Positions 43,841 through 53,857 of a stretch of DNA of 64,000 nucleotides are shown here, in pieces. The stretch lies in contig JARXAK010000202.1 of NCBI GenBank assembly GCA_029865885.1, positions 1 to 64,000 on the forward strand. Reading direction: 5' to 3'. The notes under the pieces were generated by a model. That model saw nothing but the letters and a program-made list of their open reading frames with translations, was not told the DNA's origin and ran no database searches. The translations under genes and the position numbers were made by a program. This DNA comes from Rhizobium sp. GTDB lineage: Bacteria > Pseudomonadota > Alphaproteobacteria > Rhizobiales > Rhizobiaceae. Within the stretch, counting starts at the first letter, position 1. Every line of letters starts with the position of its first letter.

Positions 43841-44662
43841 CTATTTCACGGAGCCGAGCATGCCCTGCACGAATTGGCGTTGCATGGCGAAGAAGACGAG
43901 GAGGGTGGGAAGGGTGGCGAGGATCGTGCCGATCATCACGGTGCCGTATTCGGGCGAATAGGCGGAGGCGAGCGAGGACACGACCAGCGTGATCGTCTTG
44001 GTGTCATTCGACTGCAGCACGATCAGCGGCCAGAGATAATTGTTCCAGTTCAGCATGAAGACGATGACGAAGGCCGCCGCATAGGTCGAGCGCATCACCG
44101 GAACATAAATGTAGAAGAAGATCTGCCACTCCTTCAGCCCGTCCACCTTGGCCGCATCACGAAGCTCGGTCGGAAAGGCTTTTGAGGCCTGGCGGAAATA
44201 GAAGATGATGAAGGCCGACGCGATCATCGGCAGCATGATGGCGATATGGGTATTCAGCAGCCCCGCCTGCCCCATCAGCATGAAGAGCGGGATCATCAGC
44301 GCCGCAAACGGCACCATGAGCGTCAAGAGGATCACGGTATAGACCCGCTCGCGCAGCTTTGAGCGGAACATCTCGAAACCGTAGCCGGCAAGCGAGGAGA
44401 CGAGCAGCGTCAGCGCCGTGCCGACAAGCGCGATCTTCACCGAGTTCCAGAACACCAGCGGCACATCCACCTGGGCGAAGAAGGACGCGATGTTGTCGAA
44501 GAGCGCCGTACCGAAGGTGACCTTGCCGCGCACGATCTCGCTCGTGGTGTTGGTCGCGCCGATCACCATCCAGATGAACGGAAAGATCGAGAGGAAGGCG
44601 GCAAGCGACAGCACGGCATACTGCACGATGTCGGGCAGCCGGCGGCGAAGCATTGTCATCAT
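43841..44662 (-). CDS. Carbohydrate ABC transporter permease (MalG-like)
   Basis: CUT1 permease: 'ELRDAAKVDGLKEWQIFFYIYVPVMRSTYAAAFVIVFMLNWNNYLWPL'. Confidence 0.93.
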   Translation of the reverse strand: MMTMLRRRLPDIVQYAVLSLAAFLSIFPFIWMVIGATNTTSEIVRGKVTFGTALFDNIASFFAQVDVPLVFWNSVKIALVGTALTLLVSSLAGYGFEMFRSKLRERVYTVILLTLMVPFAALMIPLFMLMGQAGLLNTHIAIMLPMIASAFIIFYFRQASKAFPTELRDAAKVDGLKEWQIFFYIYVPVMRSTYAAAFVIVFMLNWNNYLWPLIVLQSNDTKTITLVVSSLASAYSPEYGTVMIGTILATLPTLLVFFAMQRQFVQGMLGSVK

Positions 44663-45555
44663 TTGCGTTCCCTCGCGGCATAGAATTGCAGGAAGGAGAG
44701 GACCGCCACCATCAGCACGATGACATAGGAGACGGTTGCCGCATAACCGAAGCTCGGCATGAAACGGAAGGTCAGGTTGTAGATGTAGAGCGACAGCGTC
44801 AGCGTCGAATCCGCAGGCCCGCCTTTGCCTTCGGTGAAGTTGTAGACCTCGTCGAACAGCTGCAGCGTGCCGATCGTCGAGGTGATCGTGGTAAACAGGA
44901 TCACCGGTTTCAGCATCGGAATGGTCAGAAAGGCGAAACGCCCCCAGGACGGCACGCCGTCGATCTTCGCCGCCTCATAGATCGACCGGTCGATATTCTG
45001 GAGTGCTGCCAGATAGAAGATCATGTTGTAGCCGGTCCAGCGCCAGGTAATGGCGATGATGATCAGGACCTTGGCCCAGAAGGGGTCTGTGAGCCAGCCG
45101 ATCGGCTCGCCGATGATGCCGATCGTAAGCAGCGCATTGTTCACCACGCCGTCGAGCGAGAACATGCTCTTGAACAGAATGGAATAGGCGACCAGCGACG
45201 AAACGCAGGGAAGGAAGATCATGGTCCGGAACAGGCCGGAATAACGCAGCTTCGGATTGTTCAGCATGGCCGCCAGGATCAGCGCCATGGTGATCATGAT
45301 CGGCACCTGGACGACGAAGAAGATGACGGTGTTTTCCAGCGCCTTCCAGAAGACGGGATCGTTCCACAGCCGCACGAGGTTACCGGTGCCCGAGAACTTC
45401 AGCATCATCCCGCGTCCCGAATAGAAGGACAGCGCGAGAGAACGCAGGATCGGATAGAGCATGAAGAGCGAGATCAGCACGAGGGCGGGAGCGACGAACA
45501 GCCATCCGTTCACGTCGTAGTAGCGCCTCAGGCTGGATCTGGATGTGGTGGCCAT
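44659..45555 (-). CDS. Carbohydrate ABC transporter permease (MalF-like)
   Basis: 'YEAAKIDGVPSWGRFAFLTIPMLKPVILFTTI' EAA loop; start MATTSRSS. Confidence 0.93.
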   Translation of the reverse strand: MATTSRSSLRRYYDVNGWLFVAPALVLISLFMLYPILRSLALSFYSGRGMMLKFSGTGNLVRLWNDPVFWKALENTVIFFVVQVPIMITMALILAAMLNNPKLRYSGLFRTMIFLPCVSSLVAYSILFKSMFSLDGVVNNALLTIGIIGEPIGWLTDPFWAKVLIIIAITWRWTGYNMIFYLAALQNIDRSIYEAAKIDGVPSWGRFAFLTIPMLKPVILFTTITSTIGTLQLFDEVYNFTEGKGGPADSTLTLSLYIYNLTFRFMPSFGYAATVSYVIVLMVAVLSFLQFYAARERK

Positions 45556-45684
45556 GCGGTGTCCCCGAACCCGATCAGTGGTCACTGAACCTTGATATGT
45601 GAAGGGAAGCCGCGCGGCGCTTGCGCCGCGCGGCTCCGGGAGGACACGGGCCAGACCCCAAGGCCAAGCCCCTGTGGGATGGGT

Positions 45685-46953
45685 TTACTGGATCTGACCG
45701 GCGGCCTGCTCTTCGATCGCCTTCAGGACGTCATCGACAGGCGTTCCCTTGAGCAGCGCCGGGAAGTTGGCCGTGACAGCCGTGTCCAACTCGTTGGTGA
45801 AGATGCCGTAGTTGACGGCCGGCACCTGGACGAGCCAATCGGCAAAGTTCTGCCAGACCGTCTGGCCGCCGAAGAAGTCGTCTGGCTTCTGATAGGCTTC
45901 GCCGGTGCGGGCGGCGAGCAGCGAGCCGACGGCACCGCGCTCGGTCAGGATCTTCTGATAGAAGTCGAGATCCTTGGCATAGACTTCATTGAGGAAGTCG
46001 ATTGCTTCGTCCTTTTCAGCGGAAGCCTCAAGCACATACCAGCTCGAACCACCGAGGTTGGAGGCGGCGGTCGCGCCATCGATGCCAAGCTTCGGAATGG
46101 CGGTCAGGGCCCACTTGCCGGCCTGATCGGGCTGCGCCTTGACGGTGCCGGTGATCCAGACGCCGAGCAGGACGGCGGCGACATCGCCGGAGGTGAAGGC
46201 GTTGACGCCGTCGTTCCAGCCGCTGGTCGGCTTTGCCACGCCTTCGTTGACGATCCGCGCCTGGGTTTCGAGGGCTGCCTTCAGAGCGGCGTTGCCTGTG
46301 ATGTTGAGGCTGCCATCGTCCTTGAAATACCACTGGCCGCCAGACTGCATCATGATGCGGATCAGACCGCCGTCATTGCTGTCGAGCGCCATCATCTCAT
46401 GACCGGTCTTGGCCTTGACGTCCTTGCCGATCTCGATGAAGCGATCCCAGGTCAGGTTCTCCATGTCGGAGGCCTTGTAACCTGCCTGCTCCAGATAGTC
46501 CTTGCGGTAGTAGAGGCCGGTGACGCCGGAATCGAAGGGAACGCCATAGACCTGGCCCTCGAGGGTCATCAGGTCGACCTTGTATTTGGCAAAACCGGAA
46601 TAATCGATCTTGTCGGTCAGCGCAGCGAACGAGCCGGGGAAGGACTGCAGATATTTCTGCGCGCCGTAATCCTCGATCAGCACGATATCCGGCAGCGTGT
46701 CGGTCATGCCGGAGGCCAGACCCGTCTGCAGCTTCTGTTCGACATCGGCCTTGGCGAAGTCGACGATGTTGAATGTCGTGCCGGGGTTCTTCGCGGTGTA
46801 ACGCGCAGCGGCTTCCTTCATGATCGCGACATTGAAGTTCGGATCCCAGCACCAGATGGTGACTTCGCCGGCGAACGCAGCCGTGCTGCAGAGAAGTGCG
46901 GCACCCGTCAATGCTGCCGAGACGGAGCGCTTGAGCACGCGAGAATAATCCAT
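45685..46953 (-). CDS. Carbohydrate ABC transporter extracellular substrate-binding protein
   Basis: Signal peptide; 'EVTIWCWDPNFNVAIMKEAAARYTAKNPGTTFNIVDF' SBP_bac_1 features. Confidence 0.93.
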   Translation of the reverse strand: MDYSRVLKRSVSAALTGAALLCSTAAFAGEVTIWCWDPNFNVAIMKEAAARYTAKNPGTTFNIVDFAKADVEQKLQTGLASGMTDTLPDIVLIEDYGAQKYLQSFPGSFAALTDKIDYSGFAKYKVDLMTLEGQVYGVPFDSGVTGLYYRKDYLEQAGYKASDMENLTWDRFIEIGKDVKAKTGHEMMALDSNDGGLIRIMMQSGGQWYFKDDGSLNITGNAALKAALETQARIVNEGVAKPTSGWNDGVNAFTSGDVAAVLLGVWITGTVKAQPDQAGKWALTAIPKLGIDGATAASNLGGSSWYVLEASAEKDEAIDFLNEVYAKDLDFYQKILTERGAVGSLLAARTGEAYQKPDDFFGGQTVWQNFADWLVQVPAVNYGIFTNELDTAVTANFPALLKGTPVDDVLKAIEEQAAGQIQ

Positions 46954-47049
46954 GTGTTCCTCCCATTATGACGTTGAACGTGGCAGCCTCATCCCCTGCC
47001 TCAACGCCACTATTTCCGAAAAACGGAGGACAGCCAAGAAAATTTTTAC

Positions 47050-47059
47050 TAAATATTTT
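47050..47059. promoter_or_regulatory. Candidate LacI operator core TAAATATTTT upstream of the CUT1 SBP
   Basis: Same 10-mer, inverted, at 48232-48241 upstream of the lacI-type gene. Confidence 0.4.
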
Positions 47060-47108
47060 GTGCGCTGCGGTAAGTCATGAAGATTGCACAACCTTTCCTC
47101 GTCGAGGT

Positions 47109-48176
47109 TCAGTCGACCGGCAGCGTCTTGGAACTTCCACGCCAGACCATTTCTGTCGGAAGCGTAACATGTTTGGCGTAGTCGCGGCCATTCAGCCGCT
47201 CGACCAAGAGATCCACGGCCACTTCACCGATGAGCTCCCCGGGAATGCGCATGGTCGAGAGCGGCGGCATCAGAAACTGCGCAACCGGAATATCATTGAA
47301 GGCAACGACCGCGATATCCTCAGGGATCGAGAGGCCGGCCTCCTGGATCGCCCGATAGGTGCCGATCGCCATATTGTCGTTGGCCGCCACGATAGCATCG
47401 GGCCGCATCTCCAGGGCTAGCAAAGACTTCGCCTGCTGGTAACCCGTCTCAAGGCGCAAGTTCTGCCCGAAGCGTTCGCTCTGGCCAAGCGCCATGAGTT
47501 CGGGCTGGTAGCTTCCCCGCGCCTCATGCCATTCGATAAATGCCTTGCAGCGCTGTTCGCCATGCATCAGCGCATCATTGTCCATCAGCTCGTAACCGCC
47601 GACAAAACCGATCCGGCGGTAGCCAGCCTGCTCCAGACTGTCGAGGATGGTGGTCGTAGCCTCGCCCAAATCCGCCCGCACACAGTCGAATTGTGGCATG
47701 CGCGGATTGTAGTCGGCCATGACGAGATGCTGACAGACCTTGGCCATCGCCTCGATCTCCGCCTTCGGATGGTGCCCGACCACGATCATGGCCGAAATGC
47801 CGGTCAGCATGGCGAGATCCACGGGCACATCCGGGTTGAAAACGCGTGCGATCTCGATCTTGTACTCCCGGCAGCGCGCCTCGATGCCAAGCCGAACGCC
47901 AACATAATAGGGATCGACCAGCTCCTCCTGCGGCGCAAGGAAATGCACGATGGCGATATGGGCCGGCACCTCCGCATGGCTCGCCATCGGGATTGTCAGC
48001 GGAGGAAGCTGGGCATTCTTGCGCGCCCGCGGCGTCGCATAGTTCAGCGCTTCTGCCGTCTCGATGATCGCCTGCCGCTTGGCTTCCGACACCGAAAGCG
48101 TCTGGTCATAATTCAAGACGCGCGACACGGTGCCGGAAGAGACACCCACTGCCTTCGCAATTTCCTTGATCGTCAC
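47109..48176 (-). CDS. LacI family transcriptional regulator
   Basis: VTIKEIAKAVGVSSGTVSRVLNYDQTLSVSEAKRQAIIETAEALNYATPR; GTG start inferred. Confidence 0.92.
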   Translation of the reverse strand: MTIKEIAKAVGVSSGTVSRVLNYDQTLSVSEAKRQAIIETAEALNYATPRARKNAQLPPLTIPMASHAEVPAHIAIVHFLAPQEELVDPYYVGVRLGIEARCREYKIEIARVFNPDVPVDLAMLTGISAMIVVGHHPKAEIEAMAKVCQHLVMADYNPRMPQFDCVRADLGEATTTILDSLEQAGYRRIGFVGGYELMDNDALMHGEQRCKAFIEWHEARGSYQPELMALGQSERFGQNLRLETGYQQAKSLLALEMRPDAIVAANDNMAIGTYRAIQEAGLSIPEDIAVVAFNDIPVAQFLMPPLSTMRIPGELIGEVAVDLLVERLNGRDYAKHVTLPTEMVWRGSSKTLPVD

Positions 48177-48231
48177 CACGGCGGCCTGCCCTCCTCCACC
48201 TGTCTTCCCGAGGAGCTTGGTAAACCTCTGG

Positions 48232-48241
48232 AAAATATTTA
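48232..48241. promoter_or_regulatory. Candidate LacI operator core AAAATATTTA upstream of the lacI-type gene
   Basis: Reverse complement of 47050-47059; suggests autoregulation. Confidence 0.4.
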
Positions 48242-48367
48242 CTAGGCCAGCCAGGTGAGGGATACAAGCACTTCCTTGAACACGGTCGTTGCCGAAGGAA
48301 GGCACTGAGATCGACAGGGAGGCGACCGGCGCGAATTGCGTCGATCCGCCACAAACCCGGTGGCGCT

Positions 48368-48619
48368 CTAGGCCTGGGCCTCGCTGACAAAGGCCTCAAT
48401 CTCGGCAAGGCTGTCGAGACGGGTCACGTCGAAATCGGCGGCAGCAAGGTCGATGCCGAAGGTCTCTTCGAGCAACATCATCAGATGCGTGGCCGCCAGC
48501 GAATCCAGCCGGCCACTGAAGAACAGCGAGTCCGTATCGTGAAGCGGCTGTCTGTCGCCGCGCTCCTCGAGCAGCCCCTGAACCCGGGTACGGATGGACG
48601 CAATTTTCTCAACGGTCAT
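48368..48619 (-). CDS. Acyl/peptidyl carrier protein, DltC-like
   Basis: SLFFSGRLDSLAATHLMMLLEETFGIDLAAADFDVTRLDSLAEIEAFV: phosphopantetheine DSL motif in DltC-like context. Confidence 0.88.
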   Translation of the reverse strand: MTVEKIASIRTRVQGLLEERGDRQPLHDTDSLFFSGRLDSLAATHLMMLLEETFGIDLAAADFDVTRLDSLAEIEAFVSEAQA

Positions 48620-48625
48620 GGCAGG

Positions 48626-50110
48626 TCAAACTCCAAACAGGCCAAACAGGAAGTGGAAACGATCCGACAGCTGGCCTTCCAGCCAAACACTGTCGAAGAT
48701 TTTCAGGAAGCAGAAGAACAGGGCCACGTTGATCCGCGGCCAGACCTGGTGGCGCCAGAAGCCATCATCCGGCGAGGTCTTGCGGCCCCAGATCTGCGAG
48801 ATGATCAGACCGGCCGACAGCAGACACACATAGAAGGCGAGCGTTTCGAACCGGTCCAGTTCATCAAGCGGCGTCCCATCGGCAAAGACATGGGACACGA
48901 AAATGAGATGATAGAGGAAGTTGCCGAAACCGGCCGCACAGAAGGTCGCGAACGCGATACGCAGGCGTGGCGATGTCTTGAACCAGCGCATGAAGGCTGG
49001 ATAGAAGAAGAAATCGACCAGAACCTCTTTGAAGTAATAGTAGTAGCGGTTCCAGAACTCGGCGATCGAGCGGGAGGCCAGCGGGTTCACGGTGTTGCGC
49101 GGAATATTGTAACCCATCATCCGCGCCACGGCGACAATCGCATGGCCCCAGGCCGCAATGATCAGCAGATCCACGCCGTAATTGACGAAGAGACCCAGCC
49201 ACCTGAGCCCGATGGGCATGGCCGCCGCATCCACTGGATTGAGGATCATGAAACCGAGCTTCGGCACACCCAGCATCTCGTGGAACAGGGTCGTGACAGC
49301 CAGACAGGTCCAGCTGAGGATAGCCGTCCAGACCGCAAGCTTCAGCGCCTTCAGGCGCGTCACGGCCAGCGCTTCATCATCTTTCGCCTCGAACCGCTTG
49401 AGAAAGGACAGACCCTTTCCGATCGGTGCGACATCGCCGCCCCAGACCGGGCGCATGTAAAGCGCCCGGACGCTGTCGGGAGCTGCAGCCTTCGCCTTCA
49501 GGTCAACAGCCGCATAGGCCAGAAACCAGAAGCAGGATGCCCAGACGGCCACGAAAGCCCAGAGAATCGCATGACCGTAATTCCCCGGCGGCAAGAAGGC
49601 GGCAATGGCAAGCAAGGCGAGGAAACCGGTCAGCTGGACCAGCACCGGACGCCGCGACCACAGGCCGCTGCTCAGTCTCTGGCCCGCGATCATGGCCTGC
49701 GCAAAACCGAGGAAAAGCAACACGCCGGCAATTTGCAAAGCCAGCGGAGGCACAGAGATGCCGGTCCCAAGCGCCGAAGCCAGATCCGTGATCATCGCGT
49801 TCATGTCTGCCGTCCGGAAGGGCCGCAGCAGCAGAAACACCAGACTTGACGTGATGAGGATGGCGAGCCGGTGTCCCGGCCATCGCGCGGCGGCAAGGAG
49901 CGTCAGTCCGATCAGCACGAGCGCCGATAGACTGATCTGCAAACTCAAGCCGAGTGCGGCCAGAAACAGCACATGGATCAGGAGCAGACCGCGGATCGTC
50001 CCGACAAAGGCGCGTGCATCCGCATTCGTATCGATCGTCAGCCAGGAACGGCGGAGCTGCAGGAGGCGTTGCAAGGGACTTGCCCCTTCCTGCTCGGAGA
50101 TAAGGCTCAC
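48626..50110 (-). CDS. MBOAT-like multi-pass membrane acyltransferase (DltB-type role inferred)
   Basis: Many TM segments, 'SIAEFWNRYYYYFKEVLVDFFFYPAFMRWF' and 'GFGNFLYHLIFVSHVF' with MBOAT-type His. Confidence 0.7.
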   Translation of the reverse strand: MSLISEQEGASPLQRLLQLRRSWLTIDTNADARAFVGTIRGLLLIHVLFLAALGLSLQISLSALVLIGLTLLAAARWPGHRLAILITSSLVFLLLRPFRTADMNAMITDLASALGTGISVPPLALQIAGVLLFLGFAQAMIAGQRLSSGLWSRRPVLVQLTGFLALLAIAAFLPPGNYGHAILWAFVAVWASCFWFLAYAAVDLKAKAAAPDSVRALYMRPVWGGDVAPIGKGLSFLKRFEAKDDEALAVTRLKALKLAVWTAILSWTCLAVTTLFHEMLGVPKLGFMILNPVDAAAMPIGLRWLGLFVNYGVDLLIIAAWGHAIVAVARMMGYNIPRNTVNPLASRSIAEFWNRYYYYFKEVLVDFFFYPAFMRWFKTSPRLRIAFATFCAAGFGNFLYHLIFVSHVFADGTPLDELDRFETLAFYVCLLSAGLIISQIWGRKTSPDDGFWRHQVWPRINVALFFCFLKIFDSVWLEGQLSDRFHFLFGLFGV

Positions 50111-51753
50111 GAAACGCCCCCTTCAAGGAGGTCGCGTAGCGCGCGCCGATCCACCTTGCCGTTGATGTTGACGGGCAGCGCATCCTTGAGATGGATGACT
50201 TCCGGAACCATGTAGCGCGGCAGGGAGCGCAGCATATTCGCCTGGATCGAAGCGGCCGTTTCACCGCTGCCAGCGACGAAGCCGACGAGGCCCGCCGCAG
50301 AACCATCGATGAAGGGCCAGGCCACCACGGCAACGACCGTGCTGTCAGCCGCAAGCCTCAAGTGGGCCTCCACCTCTTCCAGCTCGATCCGGTTCCCCTT
50401 CACCTTGACCTGATTATCCGTCCGGCCGAGATGGTGGTAGATCCCCTCGGCGTCGCACATGCCCAGATCCCCGGTCAGGTACCAGCGCTCTCCGCCGATC
50501 TCGCGAAAGCGGTCCGCGGTCTGCTCCGGTGATGCGAAATATCCGATCCCGACCTGCGGTCCGCCAAGCGCGATCTCCCCCGGCTCGCCGGCAGCGACAG
50601 GCTGCAGGTCAGGACCAAGGATCGCGATCTTGCCGTCGCTGAATGGCGCGCCGATCGCCACGACGCCGCGCCCCGGCGTGAGCGGCATCTCCACTCCCAC
50701 GCTTTGTCTGAGCATCACCACTGTGCATTCCGTTGGCCCGTAGATGTTCTCGATGGCACTGTTTGGCGCAGCAACCGCCCAGGCCTCGACGGTGGCACCA
50801 GGGAGAGGCTCCCCGCAAAAGATCGACAGACGGATGGTCTCGAACAGACCGGGCTTTAGAGAACCGGCAGCGCGCATCATGTTGACGATGGTCGGCACGG
50901 ACATCCAGGCCGTGATGCCATGACTGCGGATGAAGTGCTGCGGCGCCGACAGTTCGAGCGCCGACATCACATGCAACGCGGCACCGGATTCCAGTGTCAG
51001 GAAGAGATTATGCACACTGAGGTCGAAAGTCAGGTCATGCGCTTCCGCCACACGATCCTGAATGCCCAAACCGGTCCAGGAGCGCGCCTGCGCCAGATAG
51101 GAAGCGAGCGAGCCGGCCGAAATGACCACCCCCTTGGGAAGTCCGGTCGTCCCGGAGGTGAAGATGATATAGGCCTCATGATCCGGCGCCACCATGACAG
51201 GTGCCGCAAGCGGTGCGTCGCTCAAGCCGTCCAGCGGCATGATCCGGGGATCGGTTGTTGCCGGCATGTCGGCCTTTTCCGGGCCGATGATGATGTCAGG
51301 CGCGGCAGCCATGACCTCCGGTGTCAAGAGACCGATGCCGTTGCGATCGACAATCAGGGCATCGAGGTCAAGCAGGCCCATCAGCTTGATCAGCCGCTCG
51401 GCTGGCCATTTCTGATTGAGCGGCACATAGGTCGCTCCAGCCATGCAGGCTCCGAGAACACCGACATAGCCTTCAAGGCTGCGGGTTGCCAGAATGCCGA
51501 CCCGCCGCTGCTTCAGCCGAGGCGCAAGAAAGCCGGCAAGCCGCGCGATCTTCTCCGCCAAGGCGTCATAGGTAAACTCGCGCCGGGCGACGACAAGGGC
51601 GGTTGCATTGGGGTGAGCCTGCGCGCAGTCCCAAAATGGCGCGGCGAGGTTGAAGTTATCAAGCCTGTTTTGCACTGGAACACCGTTCAAGATTTTAACC
51701 CGCGTCACTGTTGTCTGACTGTTGGATGGCGATGATCGGGGCGACGTCATCAT
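50107..51753 (-). CDS. Amino-acid adenylation enzyme, DltA/AlmE-like stand-alone A domain
   Basis: YIIFTSGTTGLPKGVVIS, LTFDLSVHNLFLTL (FDxS motif), LSIFCGEPLPGA, IENIYGPTECTV, GERWYLTGDLG, KVKGNRIELEEVEAHL, LPVNINGKVDRRAL. Confidence 0.9.
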   Translation of the reverse strand: MMTSPRSSPSNSQTTVTRVKILNGVPVQNRLDNFNLAAPFWDCAQAHPNATALVVARREFTYDALAEKIARLAGFLAPRLKQRRVGILATRSLEGYVGVLGACMAGATYVPLNQKWPAERLIKLMGLLDLDALIVDRNGIGLLTPEVMAAAPDIIIGPEKADMPATTDPRIMPLDGLSDAPLAAPVMVAPDHEAYIIFTSGTTGLPKGVVISAGSLASYLAQARSWTGLGIQDRVAEAHDLTFDLSVHNLFLTLESGAALHVMSALELSAPQHFIRSHGITAWMSVPTIVNMMRAAGSLKPGLFETIRLSIFCGEPLPGATVEAWAVAAPNSAIENIYGPTECTVVMLRQSVGVEMPLTPGRGVVAIGAPFSDGKIAILGPDLQPVAAGEPGEIALGGPQVGIGYFASPEQTADRFREIGGERWYLTGDLGMCDAEGIYHHLGRTDNQVKVKGNRIELEEVEAHLRLAADSTVVAVVAWPFIDGSAAGLVGFVAGSGETAASIQANMLRSLPRYMVPEVIHLKDALPVNINGKVDRRALRDLLEGGVS

Positions 51754-51797
51754 TCCGGTTGCGGTCCGCCCAATGCCAAGACCGGATCCCCGCCCCG

Positions 51798-52685
51798 CTA
51801 GAAGTCGGCGGCGACCATCAGCGCCGAAGCAGCGGCCGCCGACCCGACCGCCATCGATAGCCAGGGCCGCTTTTGCGAGACATCGATCGTGAAGAGATTG
51901 AGCGGAAAGAGGTGCTGATGCGATTGGGGTGACGCCCTTCGCTTCGGCGCCGGCAGATACCATTCGTCATCGAACCAGCGCCAGTCGTCCGCCCATGTCC
52001 AGCAGTCATGCCGCTTGTAAACGGCTGCCACTTCTTCCGCGAAAGCCTTGTCGGTTGGAAGACGGATCGGCTGCCCCGGAGAGGTCTGAAAATACCGCAT
52101 CGCCAGCGGCAGCGATCGGTTGGTGCAATAGTTCGACATCCAGAGATTGAAGCCGATCTCGTCTCTCAGGCCTTGCAGGACACGGAAGAGCTGAACATGT
52201 TCTTCGTGACCATACTCTCCCCAGGGGTTGTGCGTGAACACGTTCATGCCCGGACGCAGGCGAGCGCGCAGCAGCGCTTGAATCTTGACGAAGTTGTTCC
52301 GATAGGCCGTCAGAACACTGTGTTCGGCCACCCGCATTTCGCCCATGCCGACTTTGCCAAGCGCCCGGCGCGACATGCGGGTCAGCTCGCGTCGCTGGCT
52401 TTCAAAGCTAAGGACGAGACCATCCGGACTTTCGCGAGGGTCCTCCCAGCTGGCACAGCCAGCGGCACCGGATTCCGCAACATTGAGGCAGCTGACACCA
52501 CTCCTCGGGAAATCGGCGAGAGCCGCTGCCCGCTTCTCCCCCAGTCCCGGCTGCGCCCAGAAATCGCGAAACACCACGATCACTTCGTCGACATCCTTCA
52601 GAATGGCATTGAACCACAGCAATTCGTCGTCGGGATGGGCCGCAACGATGACGGAATTGTTCAAGAAGGCCGGGCGCTCGTTCAT
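51798..52685 (-). CDS. PIG-L/LmbE family deacetylase
   Basis: VIVAAHPDDELLWFNAIL (AHPDDE Zn motif) and 'NPWGEYGHEEHVQLFRVL' second His motif. Confidence 0.88.
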   Translation of the reverse strand: MNERPAFLNNSVIVAAHPDDELLWFNAILKDVDEVIVVFRDFWAQPGLGEKRAAALADFPRSGVSCLNVAESGAAGCASWEDPRESPDGLVLSFESQRRELTRMSRRALGKVGMGEMRVAEHSVLTAYRNNFVKIQALLRARLRPGMNVFTHNPWGEYGHEEHVQLFRVLQGLRDEIGFNLWMSNYCTNRSLPLAMRYFQTSPGQPIRLPTDKAFAEEVAAVYKRHDCWTWADDWRWFDDEWYLPAPKRRASPQSHQHLFPLNLFTIDVSQKRPWLSMAVGSAAAASALMVAADF

Positions 52686-53857
52686 CCATTGTCCTCCCCG
52701 GATGTCTGCCGGTGGGCAAAAGCTGTCGTGGTTGTGGGGGCGGCACCATCCCGCCAACGCTCGCGCCAGCGCAAGGCGGTCAGCGCCAGGGCTCCTCGCA
52801 ATGTCGAGGCCTGCGTCAGCGTATGCAGGGCCGTGGGCACCGTGCCGAAATCAGCCTTGAAGGGCTCGTCACCGATGGTGAAATCGAAGGTTTGCCCGCC
52901 AGCATTGATCCAGTCTGCAATCATGCCGTCATACAGCAGGAGACCTGGGGAATGACGGCCATGAGCCTGATAGTCGCACCCGATGAGCAGGTAATGAAGC
53001 CGCCCGCGCTCCGTCACTGAGAATGTGTAGCCGATCACCTCGCCGCCGACTTCCAGCGCATAGACCCGGGCAAAATCCGCTGGGGCGCCGGACTGCGCAA
53101 CGGTGCGATAGAAGGCCAGCGCTGCCGGTGCGGCGATCACATCCTGCTCGAAACGCCCCTCACGCAGCTCAGCCAACCGACCGATGGCCGCAGCAATGGC
53201 CTGCTCTCCCTCGATGACAACGAGCCGGGCACCATCCCCCTTGAAGAAGCGCTTGCGCTTGCGCGCAAGGTAGCGCGCAAAGCTCTCCGTGAGCGCCTGT
53301 TCGCGCCAGCGCTCCACGGGACCAGCAAGGGCAGTGGCATGTGCTGAAAATCCGAGTTTCCTGACGCTGCCGGGCAGGAGAGCCTGCCACAGCGGCAGAT
53401 GCTCATCCCTGATGGGCTTCACCCGCAACAGGTCGTGAGACGGCAATGCTGCGGCAAGGCTTGCGCGGATCGACCTGTGGTCACCCTGCATCTGCCACCA
53501 GTCGAGGTCGACGACAGGCGCCGCGTAATCACTCACGCCGAGATCGGCGCTTTCAAGGACAGTAACACCCGAAAGCTTCCGCACAATCAGCGGCAGGACG
53601 ATTGACGGAGGTTGCCCCGGTCCGGGTCGCCCGACCAACGCCACAGCGCGGGCCGCCCTTGAAGGGGCAAGATGACGATAAAACGCCTGGAGCCAGAGCG
53701 GATGCTGAAAGGCGGAAGCGCCGGAGCGTGCATAAAGCGCCGCGTAGTCGGCTGATTGGAAAAACTCTTCTGTAGAAACCTCGACGACAAACGGCATCGC
53801 CGCGCCTGCGCCGGCGCGACCACCATCAGTCAAACGTGGATCGTCTGCAACAACCAT
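52682..53857 (-). CDS. GNAT family N-acetyltransferase, CelD/BcsL-type (GNAT_6)
   Basis: 'SAFQHPLWLQAFYRHL', 'FARYLARKRKRFFKGDGARLVVIEGEQ', 'YALEVGGEVIGYTFSVTERGRLHYLLIGCDYQAHGRHSPGLLLYDGMIADWINAGGQTFDFTIGDEPFKADFG'. Confidence 0.85.
   Translation of the reverse strand: MVVADDPRLTDGGRAGAGAAMPFVVEVSTEEFFQSADYAALYARSGASAFQHPLWLQAFYRHLAPSRAARAVALVGRPGPGQPPSIVLPLIVRKLSGVTVLESADLGVSDYAAPVVDLDWWQMQGDHRSIRASLAAALPSHDLLRVKPIRDEHLPLWQALLPGSVRKLGFSAHATALAGPVERWREQALTESFARYLARKRKRFFKGDGARLVVIEGEQAIAAAIGRLAELREGRFEQDVIAAPAALAFYRTVAQSGAPADFARVYALEVGGEVIGYTFSVTERGRLHYLLIGCDYQAHGRHSPGLLLYDGMIADWINAGGQTFDFTIGDEPFKADFGTVPTALHTLTQASTLRGALALTALRWRERWRDGAAPTTTTAFAHRQTSGEDNG

Follow-up and report, generated by a model that had tools for sequence, protein, structure and literature searches.

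The locus described here raises the question of whether five adjacent genes of a Rhizobium sp. encode a single surface-modification pathway or an assembly of separate systems. The window, i.e. the whole stretch of DNA that was analysed, comprises the first 64,000 nucleotides of contig JARXAK010000202.1 (assembly GCA_029865885.1), from a Rhizobiaceae draft genome of 4.0 Mb in 262 contigs that is 86.7% complete. It carries an operon encoding a GNAT_6 acyltransferase, a PIG-L-like deacetylase, a stand-alone adenylation enzyme, a membrane protein of the MBOAT type and a carrier protein, which a previous sequence-only reading had interpreted as one Dlt/Alm-like aminoacylation pathway. We found that the operon is two modules joined and not one conserved five-gene system. 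Its components are, in the order of transcription:

52682..53857, minus strand: GNAT_6 (CelD-type, PF13480) acyltransferase, operon gene 1 (PF13480, E=5.4e-27)
51798..52685, minus strand: PIG-L-like metal-dependent N-deacetylase with a hydrophobic C-terminal tail (PF02585, E=1e-4, below the cut-off)
50107..51753 (start at 51753 or nearby), minus strand: stand-alone AlmE-like amino-acid adenylation enzyme (AMP-binding, 7e-68)
48626..50110, minus strand: MBOAT-fold membrane acyltransferase with a GTG start (AlphaFold2 model and Foldseek)
48368..48619, minus strand: acyl/aminoacyl carrier protein with a DSL phosphopantetheine site (...GRLDSLAATH...; PP-binding, E=1.7e-8)

The five co-directional genes are all intact, and reading the sequence confirmed both their span (53857-48368) and the two 4-nt overlaps noticed earlier: an ATGA at 52682-52685, where the TGA of the GNAT gene shares letters with the ATG of the PIG-L gene, and a GTGA at 50107-50110 that joins the adenylation enzyme and MBOAT genes. 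The intergenic gaps measure 6 nt between MBOAT and carrier and about 44 nt between PIG-L and adenylation enzyme. The same operon is present in three other Rhizobium genomes (L022, L023 and L024) and, because of this recurrence, the five-gene set is more than a chance arrangement.

One scan of a one-genome-per-species collection retrieved 62 relatives, and a search of a plasmid collection retrieved no MBOAT relative. We call clade I the MBOAT branch that holds the window. At 27 of the 29 clade-I loci with both sides on the contig, the adenylation enzyme gene lies directly upstream and the acyl carrier protein (ACP) gene directly downstream of the MBOAT gene, the neighbours being within about 80 nt; an orthologue of the carrier is found 3' of the MBOAT in nearly all clade-I loci. 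The same order was observed in further Rhizobiaceae genomes (16/17 loci). This adenylation enzyme > MBOAT > ACP trio occurs in Rhizobium, Shinella, Bradyrhizobium, Altererythrobacter, Rhodopila, Lysobacterales, Acidobacteriota, Nitrospirota and Desulfobulbaceae, with a different order in Rhodopila (MBOAT-ACP-adenylation enzyme), and is a three-gene unit usually devoid of PIG-L or GNAT. Both the families and their conservation agree with the earlier proposal that a stand-alone alpha-amino-acid adenylation enzyme, an MBOAT and a carrier make up a Dlt/Alm-like unit for aminoacyl transfer.

The other two genes have their own distribution. The GNAT belongs to PF13480, with a score of 95 bits for a cut-off of 22. 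The PIG-L of the window reaches 23 bits versus a PF02585 cut-off of 28.2, and 18 of its 19 homologues matched this family at E<=0.001, the best at 1.6e-7. In the alignment of the homologues the metal/catalytic motif H.DDE...GHE.H (H17, D19, D20, E21, H160, H163) is invariant, and most of them possess the hydrophobic C-terminal tail, which suggests a membrane association. A profile of the 19 homologues had no match in the PDB. Searching the Rhizobium genome itself with PF02585 also gave no match, which is no evidence of absence since the PIG-L of the operon is itself below the threshold. In many Rhizobiaceae the GNAT gene directly upstream of the PIG-L gene forms a syntenic pair with no trio nearby, and the PIG-L is present in 32 of 248 genomes of this family (about 1 in 8). 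GNAT > PIG-L is a separate two-gene module, for which we found nothing relevant in the literature (here and below, open-access papers).

Only in the window and at L022, L023 and L024 do the two modules stand side by side, and the MBOATs of these three loci have 87-96% identity with that of the window; the same five genes were not found together in distant genomes, where they form two separate modules. A partial association was observed in three genomes of genus g124. Each holds an MBOAT in a normal trio and, in addition, a second MBOAT preceded by a GNAT orthologue alone (L128:6525-9192, L141:663-3212, L142:8256-10885), one of these GNAT copies having an internal stop codon. In the tree, the GNAT-paired MBOATs share the subclade of the window MBOAT with a support of 100/99. 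A GNAT orthologue was detected in 8/8 other tested genomes of this subclade versus 0/6 other trio genomes (p=3e-4, ancestry ignored), and 8 genomes have both the trio and PIG-L versus 2.3 expected (p=6e-4, ancestry again ignored); these statistics are only suggestive of a link between the modules. The conservation of the neighbourhood beyond this strain, a check named by the sequence-only reading, holds widely for the trio, but the five-gene set is confined to four genomes. The idea of five genes acting as one conserved pathway is not supported, since almost every genome with the trio has it on its own and GNAT-PIG-L forms a unit apart. The trio would therefore not require the proposed unmasking of an amine by PIG-L. 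Partly in favour of the earlier reading, GNAT-MBOAT linkage recurs independently and the GNAT tracks the MBOAT subclade of the window.

Genes neighbouring the loci were assigned by codon-usage gene calls. Directly 3' of the operon and on the same strand (43841-48305) are genes for an EbgR-like regulator of the LacI type, for a sugar-binding protein and for ATP-binding cassette (ABC) permeases. Genes from the same clusters are also 3' of the operon at L023 and L024, with no evident link to it.

The membrane protein had no match in Pfam, including PF03062, and scored 27 bits with the NCBIfam DltB model TIGR04091 (cut-off 375). Its AlphaFold2 model, computed from 36 sequences, has a predicted local distance difference test (pLDDT) score of 88, and its best Foldseek match among PDB structures is DltB (8jem/6bug; probability 1.0, E=1.7e-4), with PORCN, HHAT and LPCAT3 next. 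The match to MBOAT, set beforehand as a check, was thus obtained, with DltB as best hit, and the model identifies the protein as an MBOAT with a fold nearest to DltB. The motifs EFWNRYYYYFKE and GN..YH are conserved, and the 36 sequences have an invariant His401 that, from its position about 45 residues past the RYYYYF motif, is probably the MBOAT histidine. None of 79 sequences scanned, window MBOAT included, has the tyrosine shuttle motif FxYxxF near its C-terminus, and the window MBOAT has no Tyr within its last 22 residues.

The amino acid to be transferred can be predicted from the adenylation enzyme, which scores 303 bits with AA-adenyl-dom (TIGR01733) and 248 and 242 bits with the DltA models, whose cut-offs are 476 and 560. 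Over its full length, the best single-enzyme match in the PDB is AlmE (4OXI, 256 bits versus 177 for DltA). The pocket region also matches 4OXI best (E=2e-13), the next best protein being at 1e-4 and DltA at 1.7e-3. The enzyme, in which a DltA-like motif had been noted before, is better described as AlmE-like. The 4OXI structure is that of Vibrio AlmE with glycyl-adenylate (Gly-AMP). According to a review, Leu248 (L248) and Cys316 (C316) of AlmE set the preference for glycine, as established by mutagenesis, and DltA accommodates D-alanine through smaller neighbouring residues (PMC11253843). The positions of the specificity code were placed using a GrsA stretch and verified against the printed 4OXI alignments. 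The window enzyme has the code DLHMICIVVK, with Asp235 present; adenylation enzymes of other Rhizobium loci (L025-27) have DLHLFCIIAK, and the AlmE residues readable in the alignments are D-L-H-L-F-C-L-I-A. Asp235, Leu236 and Cys301 are common to the window enzyme and DltA, and the pocket is overall nearer to that of AlmE. Because the glycine-setting Leu and Cys of AlmE are retained together with a bulky residue (Ile) at position 322, we predict glycine as the first candidate substrate and D-alanine as the second.

The carrier has weak similarity to NCBIfam models, namely the OlsHI ACP and DltC, all far below the cut-offs. A link to OlsHI was rejected, the carrier reaching 32 bits versus 130 required for the ornithine-lipid ACP and the operon missing a counterpart of OlsH, a GH3-like enzyme (PMC12493201).

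Relatives of these genes show other combinations. Clade-II MBOAT loci were set aside as relatives, as their ligases are devoid of Asp235 and they form a separate branch. In a sister MBOAT branch (L054-L083, e.g. L074:7467-13561 and L060:4518-8568), found in Accumulibacter, Verrucomicrobiota and others, the MBOAT adjoins a carrier and a ligase lacking Asp235 (code GHCSHGASWK), together with a methylisocitrate-lyase/phosphoenolpyruvate-mutase-type enzyme and LtaS/OpgB- or EptA/CptA-like phosphotransferases; this branch probably transfers a non-amino-acid acyl group. Among the loci L040:4532-9304, L044-L049, L052 and L038:9654-11249, the Bradyrhizobium trios have the adenylation code DNFFMGCCIK and, directly upstream, a stand-alone gene for a methyltransferase of the nonribosomal peptide synthetase (NRPS) type; in an Acidobacterium such a gene is downstream. 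Trios of this type may possibly handle an N-methylated amino acid.

Two characterized systems are close to the trio. With AlmEFG, responsible for lipid A glycylation in Vibrio cholerae, it shares a stand-alone adenylation enzyme with the pocket residues D-L-H and Cys, a separate small carrier, an acyltransferase and a Gram-negative envelope. The operon differs by its adenylation enzyme-MBOAT-ACP order, by the extra GNAT and PIG-L genes and by its transferase, an MBOAT, whereas AlmG is an LPLAT-type enzyme (PMC3783018); no AlmG-type transferase is present in the operon. With DltABCXD, which D-alanylates teichoic acid, it shares an adenylation enzyme, a carrier and an MBOAT whose fold is nearest to DltB, although the sequence similarity to DltB is minimal (27 bits), the pocket is AlmE-like with its bulky Ile at 322, and teichoic acid is not expected in this bacterium. 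In Dlt and MBOAT-SGNH systems the acyl group passes via the Tyr of FxYxxF, carried by DltX or by the MBOAT C-terminus, to DltD or PatB (PMC12148441). The operon MBOAT has no such C-terminal Tyr motif (no search was made for DltX as a gene of its own), and a DltD (PF04914) search of the genome, at its 86.7% completeness, returned none, while the same search was positive in B. subtilis and L. lactis. Systems of the MBOAT-SGNH (PatA/PatB) type have in common with the operon the MBOAT fold and the invariant His, but the operon would use an ACP rather than acyl-coenzyme A (acyl-CoA), as its gene content suggests, and it contains no gene for an SGNH partner (the rest of the genome was not searched for other SGNH families). 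Given the missing Tyr shuttle motif and the absence of DltD from the genome at this completeness, the trio belongs neither to the Dlt nor to the MBOAT-SGNH systems. It works like Dlt and Alm up to the carrier, and we assign it to neither. A Gram-negative precedent for Dlt-type addition is the Bordetella dra locus, likened here by its description, which adds D-alanine to an outer-membrane component (PMC4448142).

Taken together, our results lead us to favour, as the probable explanation, a pathway in which the AlmE-like enzyme makes glycyl-ACP and the MBOAT transfers the glycine to an envelope acceptor, GNAT and PIG-L being a lineage-specific add-on. The AlmE-like enzyme would adenylate glycine or, failing that, some other amino acid of very small size, with D-alanine as the main alternative, and the activated amino acid would be loaded onto the carrier's pantetheine. 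From the carrier, the MBOAT would then move the aminoacyl group to a hydroxyl group on an envelope acceptor embedded in the membrane, forming an ester, relying on neither DltX, DltD nor a Tyr shuttle, either directly or through a further partner. The likeliest acceptor would be lipopolysaccharide (LPS), a lipid-linked glycan or a lipid. In this Rhizobium lineage only, PIG-L would deacetylate a membrane-associated N-acetylated amino sugar at the cytosolic face, and the GNAT would re-acylate the freed amine or a neighbouring site, probably on the same acceptor. In rhizobia, NodB, NodA and NodF provide a sugar N-deacetylase, a GNAT-like acyltransferase and a carrier; their deacetylate-and-reacylate chemistry is a functional analogy for the operon, PIG-L not being a NodB and no homology being claimed.

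The genomic contexts of the trio that are informative point to the envelope. Three gammaproteobacterial loci (L034:6296-12685, L042 and L050) adjoin a CptA-type phosphoethanolamine transferase (698 bits for a cut-off of 404 at L034) and also hold an 82-amino-acid protein of no known family. At the alphaproteobacterial L048 (2532-9679), a candidate acceptor locus, the trio follows genes for WbuX (an N-acetyl-sugar amidotransferase), for a surface-polysaccharide protein and for a MurJ-like flippase. Elsewhere the trio is located between mltG and yicC (Shinella) and, in genus g124, behind genes of a cbb3 oxidase; two Rhizobium genomes have it beside an extensin-like gene, and at some loci it adjoins sugar transporters.

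Several observations weigh against the favoured pathway. Most trio loci are found amid unrelated genes, so that in most taxa the context gives no hint of the acceptor. At 5 of the 9 positions read, the window code departs from that of AlmE (Met for Leu, Ile for Phe, Ile for Leu, Val for Ile, Val for Ala), and therefore another small amino acid is possible. As to the add-on, the GNAT-PIG-L pair is mostly found without the trio and its role need not involve aminoacylation, and the PIG-L structure model, built from four close sequences, has a pLDDT of 47 and was uninformative in Foldseek, so that the fold is not confirmed.

The closest rivals are a tRNA-independent synthesis of aminoacyl-lipids and a single five-enzyme pathway. 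In the former, which we consider possible but somewhat unlikely, the MBOAT would esterify phosphatidylglycerol, diacylglycerol or another membrane lipid with the amino acid bound to the ACP and replace the tRNA chemistry of MprF/LpiA-type enzymes. This would agree with a trio without a glycan-acting partner (DltD/SGNH), with a fold also near MBOATs that directly acylate lipids or proteins (LPCAT3, HHAT) and with the variety of unrelated genomic settings, which a ubiquitous acceptor would lead one to expect; yet the few informative contexts (CptA, WbuX) indicate LPS or a surface polysaccharide. The single pathway, where PIG-L would free the amine of an N-acetyl sugar to which the GNAT and/or the MBOAT would add the ACP-bound amino acid as an amide, with all five enzymes serving a single product, is unlikely. 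It could account for the close-packed, overlapping operon in four genomes, the independent GNAT-MBOAT pair of genus g124, the presence of the GNAT in every genome tested from the MBOAT subclade and an adenylation pocket shifted to Met278/Val331 across most of this subclade, but it conflicts with the trio being alone in most taxa and with the GNAT-PIG-L pair lacking the trio in most of the Rhizobiaceae where it occurs. Moreover, GNAT-fold enzymes usually take acyl-CoA as donor and FemAB-type ones aminoacyl-tRNA, and a GNAT accepting aminoacyl-ACP instead would, to our knowledge, be new. A deacetylate-and-glycylate pathway in rhizobia, where PIG-L would expose the amine of an amino sugar bound to the membrane and GNAT_6 together with the MBOAT would add glycine to it from glycyl-ACP, with neither CoA nor tRNA as donor, to produce an N- or O-glycylated envelope glycan, appears quite unlikely.

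We regard as improbable a small-molecule pathway instead of a surface modification, in which adenylation enzyme and ACP would prime an amino acid, as in NRPS assembly, to build a lipopeptide or other secreted natural product, with the MBOAT as the enzyme of release or acylation. The adenylation enzyme does score as an NRPS adenylation domain, and an NRPS-type methyltransferase adjoins the trio in Bradyrhizobium and in one Acidobacterium. Nevertheless, the neighbours examined contained no condensation, thioesterase or further modules, the acceptors of MBOATs are embedded in the membrane and the pocket is closest to that of the LPS-modifying AlmE.

The trio is a broader and more useful finding than the five-gene operon. 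It resembles a third architecture of ACP-dependent envelope aminoacylation, beside Dlt (MBOAT with DltX/DltD) and Alm (LPLAT), pairing a predicted AlmE-like glycine enzyme with an MBOAT without tyrosine shuttle in several Gram-negative phyla. The literature held nothing relevant on such three-gene units in Gram-negatives or on glycine on the LPS core, and we found no described counterpart of the trio and its putative surface modification. If true, the model would provide a test case for an MBOAT that delivers an amino acid without an SGNH partner, and the placing of amino acids on LPS or lipids would have a bearing on surface charge, tolerance to antimicrobial peptides and plant interaction in rhizobia.

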